NCBI GenBank assembly: GCA_002840355.1
Contig: PHAL01000013.1
Location: 1-46,742 of the forward strand
Direction of reading: 5' to 3'
Length of the DNA stretch: 46,742 nucleotides
DNA from: Elusimicrobia bacterium HGW-Elusimicrobia-3
GTDB taxonomy: Bacteria > Elusimicrobiota > Elusimicrobia > Elusimicrobiales > UBA9959
The position numbers and the translations under genes were made by a program. This document shows, one piece after another, positions 44,259 through 46,340 of this stretch; position 1 is the first letter of the stretch, and every line of letters begins with the position of its first letter. The notes under the pieces are model-generated. The model searched no databases and was not told the origin of the DNA. It saw only the letters and a program-made list of their open reading frames with translations.

Positions 44259-44795
44259 TTAAACTTTTTTGCCCTTCTCTTCCAGCCGCTCCTTCATCCG
44301 CTCCACGCGGGTCTTGCACCCGTCGGTGAGCTTGGAGGCGTTCTTGATCAGGCAGTCGCGCACGCGGCCTTCGCCGGGCTTGACGTCCTTGCAGAGCTTC
44401 TGCGCGTCGGCGCCGCAGACTTTCGCGCCCTTCGCACCCTTGCCGCGCGCCTTGCCCTGCCCGAGGCCCGAGCGCACGCCGCTCTTGAACCCGGATGAGT
44501 AGCCCTTGCCGTACTCGCGCAGGCAGCCGTTGGCGCCGCCGCGGCCCATCCGCTCGCCGCGCTTGCCGCGCTTTTCGCCGGCCAGGGCCTTGCGGTCCTT
44601 GCAAGCCTGGGACAGCTCGGCCTGGTGCTCCTTGAGGCAGGCCGCCACGCGCCCTTCTCCCGGCTTCACGTCCTTGCAGAACTTCGCCGCGTCGGCCGCG
44701 CAGGGCCCCTTTCCCTTCTCTGCCGCGGCCGGCAGGCTGAGGGCCAGCCCGAGTCCGCCGCTGAGGGCTAAAACCGCTATTATGTAGTTTTTCAT
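44259..44795 (-). CDS. Secreted protein with two GLG1-type Cys-rich repeats
   Basis: 178-residue exported protein: signal peptide (MKNYIIAVLALSGGLGLALSLPAAAE), then two Cys-rich repeats of the eukaryotic Golgi GLG1/ESL-1 type. Each has C-x7-C-KDVKPGEGRV-x2-C-x11-C. They are separated by a Gly/Lys/Arg-rich spacer with one more Cys (GANGCLREYGKGYSSGF). The C-terminus is highly charged. Each repeat should form two disulfides in the periplasm. The start at 44795 has AAAGGAG upstream; the longer frame is rejected. The role is unknown. Confidence 0.83.
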   Translation of the reverse strand: MKNYIIAVLALSGGLGLALSLPAAAEKGKGPCAADAAKFCKDVKPGEGRVAACLKEHQAELSQACKDRKALAGEKRGKRGERMGRGGANGCLREYGKGYSSGFKSGVRSGLGQGKARGKGAKGAKVCGADAQKLCKDVKPGEGRVRDCLIKNASKLTDGCKTRVERMKERLEEKGKKV

Positions 44796-44879: not shown

Positions 44880-45236
44880 TTAAGGAAGGTCTACGTAGAC
44901 AACGCCGTTCTCCACCTTGACCGGGTAGGTCCGGAGGGAACGGGTGGCCAGGGCGGGATCGGCCGGGTCCGGATGTTTGCTGTCAGGAGCTTTGGGGGCG
45001 GGGCCGCTGAGGGCCTCGCCGCTGCGGATGTCGAACTGGGCGTAATGCAGCGGGCAGGTGAGGATCCAGCCGGTCAGCGCGCCGCGCTCCAGCCGGGCGT
45101 TGGCGTGGCCGCAGGCGCGCTCCACCGCGTAGAAGGCGCCCTCCCAGTTGCAGAGCACCAGTTCGCGCCCGCCCAGGGTCACGGCCTTCATCCCGCCGGG
45201 CAGCAGCTCGGAGGTTTCAGCGGCTTTTGTCAGCAT
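44880..45236 (-). CDS. Rieske-type [2Fe-2S] protein (118 aa)
   Basis: Small soluble Rieske ferredoxin with cluster ligands C42-G-H44 and C61-PL-H64 in WILTCPLHYAQFDIRSGEAL. Such proteins pass single electrons, often to oxygenases. The segment after the second box has an insertion (GPAPKAPDSKHPDPADPALATRS, in parts) not found in the other Rieske gene of the operon. The start overlaps the end of the FTR-like gene by 20 bp in another frame, so it is tightly coupled. Last gene of the four-gene redox operon. Confidence 0.87.
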   Translation of the reverse strand: MLTKAAETSELLPGGMKAVTLGGRELVLCNWEGAFYAVERACGHANARLERGALTGWILTCPLHYAQFDIRSGEALSGPAPKAPDSKHPDPADPALATRSLRTYPVKVENGVVYVDLP

Positions 45237-45561
45237 AGAATACGGCCTCGGGGATCTGTTTGAGCTTGTCCGGGTCCGTCACGTCCTTGTGCACGAACAG
45301 GCCGCACCAGCAGCGCTTCATGGCGTCGTAATGCTCGCGGTGGAAAGGGATGCAGGGGCAGACGATGCGCATGTTCTCGGCGCGGTCACGGGTGCGGGCC
45401 TGGCAGGGGCAATAGGGCACGCCGGTCTCGGCCTCGAGGGCCGCCTCCTGCTCCAGCAGGAAATCGGCGTCCTCTTCTAGCGGGGTGAATTTGTAGCCCA
45501 GCGAGTCAATCAGCGGTTCGAACAGGTAGCGCAGCGCGCGCTTGCGCGGCTCGAAGGTCAC
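45217..45561 (-). CDS. Ferredoxin-thioredoxin reductase catalytic-chain-like protein
   Basis: 114-residue Fe-S/disulfide protein with the three paired-Cys motifs of the FTR catalytic chain: C51-P-C53, C68-P-C70 and C84-W-C86 (CHC in plants). Spacings are 14 and 13 residues. FTR uses a [4Fe-4S] cluster next to a disulfide to turn single electrons into dithiol reduction. There is no FTR variable chain, as in many bacterial forms. The start is a GTG at 45561 whose GTGA overlaps the glutaredoxin stop. The partner is probably that glutaredoxin. Confidence 0.87.
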   Translation of the reverse strand: MTFEPRKRALRYLFEPLIDSLGYKFTPLEEDADFLLEQEAALEAETGVPYCPCQARTRDRAENMRIVCPCIPFHREHYDAMKRCWCGLFVHKDVTDPDKLKQIPEAVFYADKSR

Positions 45562-45809
45562 TTCTTCTCCAGCAGCTTCTCGAACTCGTTCGGGTCGTAG
45601 CCCTGCACGCAGCTGTCGCCGATGCGGGTGAACGGGAAGGAGCCGGTGCAGCCCTGCCCCTTCATCTCCTTCATGATCTCCGCCTGCTTCGCTTCGTCCT
45701 GTTTGTCGTAGTCGACGCTCTCGAAAGGGAGTTTCTTGTCCTCGAAAAACTTCTTTGTCTTCTTGCACCAGAGGCAGGTGGTGAGCGCGTAGATAACTAT
45801 TTTTTTCAT
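45558..45809 (-). CDS. Glutaredoxin-like thiol oxidoreductase
   Basis: 83-residue thioredoxin-fold protein with the active site C12-LW-C15 (TTCLWCKKTK) and the cis-Pro loop TGSFPFTRIG, then GYDPNEFEKLL. Size and shape fit NrdH/Grx-type glutaredoxins. The end overlaps the FTR-like start by 4 bases, and the start lies 1 bp after the upstream Rieske gene. This suggests it is reduced by the FTR-like protein rather than by glutathione. Confidence 0.88.
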   Translation of the reverse strand: MKKIVIYALTTCLWCKKTKKFFEDKKLPFESVDYDKQDEAKQAEIMKEMKGQGCTGSFPFTRIGDSCVQGYDPNEFEKLLEKK

Positions 45810-45810
45810 G

Positions 45811-46116
45811 TCAGATCCTCACGCGGACTTTTCCGCCCGAAATTTCCACCGCGTAAACGCGCGCTTTTATTTCCGCCGCGTTTAAAAACTTTCCGTCGCG
45901 GATATCGAAGCGCCAGTCGTGGCAGGGACACTGCAGGATGTAGCCTTCAAGCGCGCCGGCGGCGAGCGGGCAGCCCATGTGCGGGCAGCGGTTCTCCAGC
46001 GCGAAAACCTCGTTTCCACGACGGACGAGCAGCACGGGCAGGCCGCGCGGGAAAACCGCGAGGGGTTTCCCTTCGGGCAGGGCCGCGAGCTCGCAGACTT
46101 CTTCGGCGGGGTTCAT
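45811..46116 (-). CDS. Rieske-type [2Fe-2S] protein (101 aa), first gene of the redox operon
   Basis: Small Rieske ferredoxin resembling NirD or dioxygenase ferredoxins. Ligands: C44-P-H46 (RCPHMGCPLAAG) and C63-PC-H66 (QCPCHDWRFDIRDG). Extra Cys next to both boxes, as in many Rieske ferredoxins, could form the stabilising disulfide (C49 and C65). It would feed electrons to the downstream partners or to an outside oxygenase. The ATG has no ribosome site; a TATAAT box ends 6 nt upstream. Confidence 0.88.
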   Translation of the reverse strand: MNPAEEVCELAALPEGKPLAVFPRGLPVLLVRRGNEVFALENRCPHMGCPLAAGALEGYILQCPCHDWRFDIRDGKFLNAAEIKARVYAVEISGGKVRVRI

Positions 46117-46247: not shown

Positions 46248-46340
46248 ATGCCCACTAAAAAGAAGGTTGCCAAGAAAGCCGTGAAGAAAGTCGCGAAGAA
46301 AGCCGTGAAGAAAGTCGCGAAGAAAGCCAAGAAGAAGTAG
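46248..46340 (+). CDS. 30-residue lysine/alanine-rich histone-H1-like peptide
   Basis: Short ORF encoding MPTKKKVAKKAVKKV and then repeats of VAKKAVKK, ending AKKAKKK: 17 of 30 residues are Lys and the rest mostly Ala/Val. It resembles the C-terminal tails of histone H1 and of bacterial H1-like proteins, which bind DNA or RNA without a fold. Support for expression: a near-consensus promoter, an AAGGAG ribosome site 4 nt before the ATG, and a strong terminator right after the stop. Codons vary among repeats (GTG/GTC, AAG/AAA). Possibly a nucleoid-compacting peptide. Confidence 0.75.
   Translation: MPTKKKVAKKAVKKVAKKAVKKVAKKAKKK

Follow-up and report, generated by a model that had tools for sequence, protein, structure and literature searches.

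The question raised by this locus is what two Rieske proteins, a glutaredoxin (Grx) and an FTR-type protein do together in a single operon. The genes lie on the minus strand of the window (the whole stretch of 46,742 nucleotides that we analysed), at positions 44880–46116, in the order RieA–Grx–FTR–RieB. RieA (45811–46116, 101 aa; PF00355, E=1.2e-18) is followed after a 1-bp gap by Grx (45558–45809, 83 aa; PF00462, E=6.8e-9), whose stop overlaps by 4 bp (GTGA) with the GTG start, at 45561, of FTR (45217–45561, 114 aa; PF02943, E=2.6e-22). The start of RieB (44880–45236, 118 aa; PF00355, E=1.1e-16) falls inside the end of FTR, with a 20-bp overlap. The Pfam assignments (Rieske, Glutaredoxin, FeThRed_B and Rieske) were all well over the curated cut-offs: 67.3 and 60.9 bits for the two Rieske proteins (cut-off 20.3), 36.2 bits for Grx (cut-off 22.9) and 79.3 bits for FTR (gathering cut-off 22). 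The first-pass annotation had described four small, tightly packed redox genes in this order, and both the Pfam matches and the coordinates bear it out. The genome is a 2.88-Mb MAG, 97% complete, whose close relatives are Elusimicrobiota. The arrangement is not a product of chance, since the same order recurs across phyla.

We gathered homologues by FTR similarity alone, without reference to Rieske genes, so that the Rieske linkage is not built into the counts. A GTDB scan with the FTR protein alone recovered 77 loci from Elusimicrobiota, Omnitrophota, Actinomycetota, Myxococcota, Acidobacteriota, Bacteroidota/Ignavibacteria, Bacillota, Spirochaetota, Methanosarcinaceae, Methanoperedens, Bathyarchaeota and others, and mapping with four profiles placed the cassette at 76 of them. 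The exception (L078:4989–5126, a Gracilibacter MAG) is a truncated CWC-type FTR remnant with no Grx or Rieske gene nearby, which is probably a decayed cassette. Further loci came from whole-genome searches and fetched stretches; after removal of duplicates, 107 distinct close homologues (>150 bits to the FTR family profile) were counted. A Rieske and a Grx gene were directly upstream of FTR in all 107, from more than 10 bacterial and archaeal phyla; their common descent means that they cannot be counted as 107 separate events, yet both bacteria and archaea are represented in the clade. The full RieA–Grx–FTR–RieB order was present in 67 of the 107 loci and RieA–Grx–FTR in 18, while most of the others had two or three upstream Rieske genes. 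We found no Rieske gene at any of the 25 more distant FTR homologues, 16 of which had a Grx–FTR pair. The gene order that had been proposed for survey is thus conserved far past close relatives. As a four-gene set it holds in part: the set is conserved, but the downstream Rieske is optional, being absent in Bacillota and Methanosarcinaceae, and the core is therefore Rieske–Grx–FTR.

Many of the genomes are MAGs, and single placements (e.g. Rhodocyclaceae L068 and Methanoperedens L032) might reflect faulty binning; the pattern is independent of any one such placement. The cassette is shared by anaerobic bacteria of many unrelated groups and by methanogenic archaea, with cultured Methanolobus species among the carriers (L057, L058, L062). 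Pairwise distances of the genes were correlated (r=0.68–0.77, against a permutation maximum of 0.24), and these sequence distances fit inheritance as a unit.

We found that the close FTR family forms one clade on a fully supported branch (100/99). Whole-genome searches gave a clean split between close members (>170 bits) and all others (<72 bits). The CPC-x13-CWC motif was present in 107 of 107 close homologues, and the scorable distant ones had a spacing of 12 with CYC, CFC or CHC. A C-terminal rubredoxin motif was found in none of the 107 close homologues, against 14 of the 25 distant ones: 13 of the 16 distant loci with an adjacent Grx, and a fourteenth locus with no adjacent Grx. FDR-type sister enzymes (CYC or CFC, x12) from the same phyla mostly combine the same kind of Grx with a rubredoxin-fused FTR. 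Among 295 Elusimicrobiota genomes, 25 had the cassette, 31 had other FTR types and none had both, a comparison that is confounded by relatedness. The Rieske genes of the cassette stand where FDR has its rubredoxin domain, and the simplest reading of these sequences is that Rieske was swapped in for rubredoxin as the one-electron module. The first-pass suggestion that Rieske proteins act as one-electron partners is strengthened by this replacement. The RieB-bearing loci form a 67-row branch (95/80), throughout which RieB is kept, with the RieB-less Bacillota and Methanosarcinaceae outside it; on this branching order, RieA–Grx–FTR probably came first as the core, and RieB joined it later.

The catalytic core of the window FTR, CPC-x14-CPC-x13-CWC (45304–45411, minus strand), has six cysteines that are predicted to hold a [4Fe-4S] cluster and a redox disulfide. 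C51, C53, C68, C70, C84 and C86 were invariant in the alignment, together with W85 and H77; the latter is seven residues ahead of C84 and, as a guess, could stand in for the His that plant FTR has between its final two Cys. By sequence and by fold, the latter from a model of only moderate confidence (pLDDT 74), the protein is closest to 4TPU, an FDR, and 7PWE, a Grx/FDR fusion, and plant FTR structures ranked lower. The FDR of Methanosarcina acetivorans (4TPU), which works with methanoredoxin, is a [4Fe-4S] disulfide reductase of the same FTR-fold family with a Grx-like acceptor, and has a similarly long CPC-to-CxC spacing (12 vs 13). Unlike the cassette FTR, it carries rubredoxin as a C-terminal domain and has Tyr or Phe separating the final two Cys, whereas the cassette has Trp (CWC) and separate Rieske proteins, with no rubredoxin domain in the window FTR. 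The solved natural fusion from Desulfotalea psychrophila (7PWE) joins Grx and FTR-type catalyst one to one and its halves match the cassette profiles, but it is a single polypeptide and the solved construct has no Rieske partner. The catalytic chain of plant and cyanobacterial FTR (1DJ7, 2PU9) shares the six-Cys CPC...CPC...CxC core; the plant type, however, has an 8-residue spacing, CHC, a thioredoxin acceptor, a variable subunit and a plant-type ferredoxin donor, in place of the spacing of 13 and the CWC seen here. No gene for an FTR variable (alpha) subunit was found between or beside the cassette genes.

Membership in FDR or in plant FTR was ruled out by the missing rubredoxin domain together with CWC and x13. 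We also compared the cassette with FtrB_double_U (NF041072) and the Uxx-star glutaredoxin-like families, to which its FTR and Grx are weakly related; identity with the selenoprotein FtrB_double_U was rejected (32.7 bits, cut-off 160; Cys, not Sec), and we know of no Rieske protein associated with these families.

The two Rieske proteins differ from each other. The cluster-binding region of RieA (CPHMGC...CPCH; 45919–45987, minus strand) follows the pattern C44-x-H46-x2-C49 ... C63-x-C65-H66, with C44, H46, C63 and H66 as predicted ligands and C49 and C65 as an additional Cys pair like that of bc1 Rieskes; all of these residues and W68 were invariant in an alignment of 37 diverse relatives. In RieB (CGH...CPLH; 45045–45113, minus strand) the ligands C42, H44, C61 and H64 are kept and likewise invariant, without the extra pair, so the difference in Cys context described at first pass is real and conserved. 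Neither sequence has an N-terminal membrane segment, unlike the bc1/b6f Rieske. The Ser and Tyr of the motif CPCHGSxYD raise the potential of bc1 Rieskes; in 99 of the 106 RieA segments having the motif it reads DWxF, i.e. without this Ser and Tyr.

The closest solved structures to the Rieske proteins are dioxygenase ferredoxins, the RieA AlphaFold model (pLDDT 95.5) being nearest to 2QPZ (TM 0.92), and the NCBIfam NirD and HcaC models match the Rieske genes under their cut-offs only. These matches would fit Rieske proteins that serve ring hydroxylation or a nitrite reductase and stand beside Grx–FTR by accident, which we consider extremely improbable: the linkage to FTR was present in 107 of 107 loci, and the genome encodes no further Rieske domain and hence no Rieske oxygenase. 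PF00355 occurs twice in the genome, both times in the cassette, which leaves RieA and RieB without a Rieske oxygenase or bc complex as a partner; PF02943 occurs once. Dioxygenase Rieske ferredoxins (2QPZ, 1FQT) resemble RieA in their soluble Rieske fold of about 100 residues and in having neither the Ser nor the Tyr of high-potential bc1 Rieskes, but are without its bc1-like extra Cys pair, and the RieA genome is without an oxygenase. A dioxygenase, NirD or bc1 role for either protein was ruled out by this genome-wide count of two.

The invariance of the extra Cys pair in RieA bears on another arrangement, in which an ordinary ferredoxin would reduce FTR directly, the Rieske proteins would be targets or sensors and the RieA pair would form a disulfide under Grx control. 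The M. acetivorans FDR, titled ferredoxin-dependent in 4TPU, uses ferredoxin, in agreement with such a scheme. We find it quite doubtful, however, as RieB has no Cys pair and yet is kept through its whole clade, and the rubredoxin domain is lacking at precisely those loci that have Rieske.

The Grx protein is a glutaredoxin-like redoxin of the YruB/methanoredoxin-like kind with an FPF cis-Pro region and a C12-L-W-C15 active site (CLWC; 45765–45776, minus strand), both cysteines of which were invariant in the alignment. Its family profile best matched the archaeal glutaredoxins 3IC4, 3NZN and 5CAX and the Grx half of 7PWE. Glutathione synthetase GshB (PF02955) was not found in the 97%-complete genome, which makes glutathione less likely as the reductant, though other thiols or imported glutathione are possible; the case that Grx is reduced only by glutathione, named at first pass as the one that would count against the relay, is weakened to that extent. 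Some Methanosarcinaceae loci contained a second or replacement Grx whose Grx domain is fused to an N-terminal segment resembling the FTR N-terminus (MDTQKIIDDARSMLRKVAEPLG...), a partial natural FTR–Grx fusion within the cassette (L044:4598–5002, L050:4649–5005, L112:1003–1416, L121:2620–3027 and L180:5377–5763).

We found no conserved fifth gene across phyla, only nitroreductase and superoxide dismutase (SOD) genes in subsets, adjoining 32 and 15 of the 107 distinct loci, respectively. Thermoleophilia have a nitroreductase ahead of the cassette and an Fe/Mn superoxide dismutase behind it; many Methanosarcinaceae have a nitroreductase after FTR, and in an Ignavibacteria locus (L069) SOD comes after the cassette. 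This linkage hints at a part in redox or oxygen defence, with a flavoprotein as a possible donor to Rieske, but it is missing from the window and from most phyla. Other neighbours were recorded in passing. Just upstream of the operon, in divergent orientation (46248–46340, plus strand), lies a 30-residue Lys/Ala-rich histone H1-like peptide (MPTKKKVAKKAVKKVAKKAVKKVAKKAKKK), and directly downstream (44259–44795, minus strand) a secreted-looking Cys-rich repeat protein (PF00839, two stretches), a gene similar to which comes after the cassette in L031. The cassette of one Myxococcota/Deltaproteobacteria MAG is followed, 139 bp downstream, by a gene of glutamate-cysteine ligase family 2 (PF04107; L039:5861–7009), a possible link to a low-molecular-weight thiol.

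FTR and FDR receive electrons one at a time at a [4Fe-4S] cluster that adjoins a disulfide; FDR reduces methanoredoxin and serves class III ribonucleotide reductase. From the sequence evidence above, we think that the operon probably specifies a disulfide reductase system linked to Rieske proteins, as a variant of the FDR/glutaredoxin (methanoredoxin) pathway. RieA, with RieB where present, would take the part postulated for rubredoxin and pass single electrons to the FTR subunit, in which a [4Fe-4S] cluster would lie beside the redox disulfide. By its homology to FTR and FDR, this subunit should reduce the Grx disulfide, in two successive one-electron steps through a Cys-ligated cluster intermediate. 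Reduced Grx would then act on protein or thiol targets, for which O2-oxidised proteins and the anaerobic ribonucleotide reductase encoded elsewhere in the genome are candidates, and a nitroreductase-type flavoprotein, where adjacent, is the candidate donor to Rieske. The cassette would not be the sole thiol reductant, as a standard thioredoxin reductase is encoded elsewhere in the genome. The pI values of the partner proteins showed no clear pattern of charge complementarity.

Dioxygenase-type Rieske ferredoxins usually have potentials of about -150 mV and FTR disulfides of about -320 mV, and electron transfer in the forward direction may thus be unfavourable unless these values are shifted or the products are drawn off. 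Rieske ferredoxins being normally of higher potential than FTR disulfides, and nitroreductase and SOD being neighbours, the relay might instead run in reverse: FTR would oxidise Grx or cellular dithiols, and single electrons would pass through Rieske to a downstream acceptor. This would amount to disulfide formation or thiol-powered detoxification with O2/ROS-linked or nitroreductase chemistry at the acceptor, RieA and RieB feeding an acceptor by which O2, superoxide or nitro/quinone compounds would be cleared. We regard the reversed direction as unlikely, since no gene for a terminal acceptor enzyme consistently accompanies the cassette and the sister Grx–FDR systems reportedly act as ferredoxin-fed reductases.

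FTR-type enzymes belong to a rare class that makes a dithiol from electrons delivered singly. Ferredoxins are their known donors, and in FDR rubredoxin serves as an internal relay. Work on the FDR of M. barkeri is cited in PMC9176816. In the open-licence literature searched, we found no description of a Rieske–Grx–FTR partnership. The first-pass view that no pathway with this set had been described thus holds, in the literature covered, for the Rieske part but not for the coupling of Grx to an FTR-type enzyme, which is already known from 7PWE and from FDR/methanoredoxin; only the Rieske part is new. As cultured Methanolobus species carry the cassette, the case is testable. If true, an FTR clade always tied to Rieske in more than 10 phyla would add a new class of donor to those known for disulfide reduction. 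It would further mean that the one-electron module of FTR/FDR-type systems can be swapped, and would give Rieske proteins a function in anaerobes that have neither oxygenases nor bc complexes.
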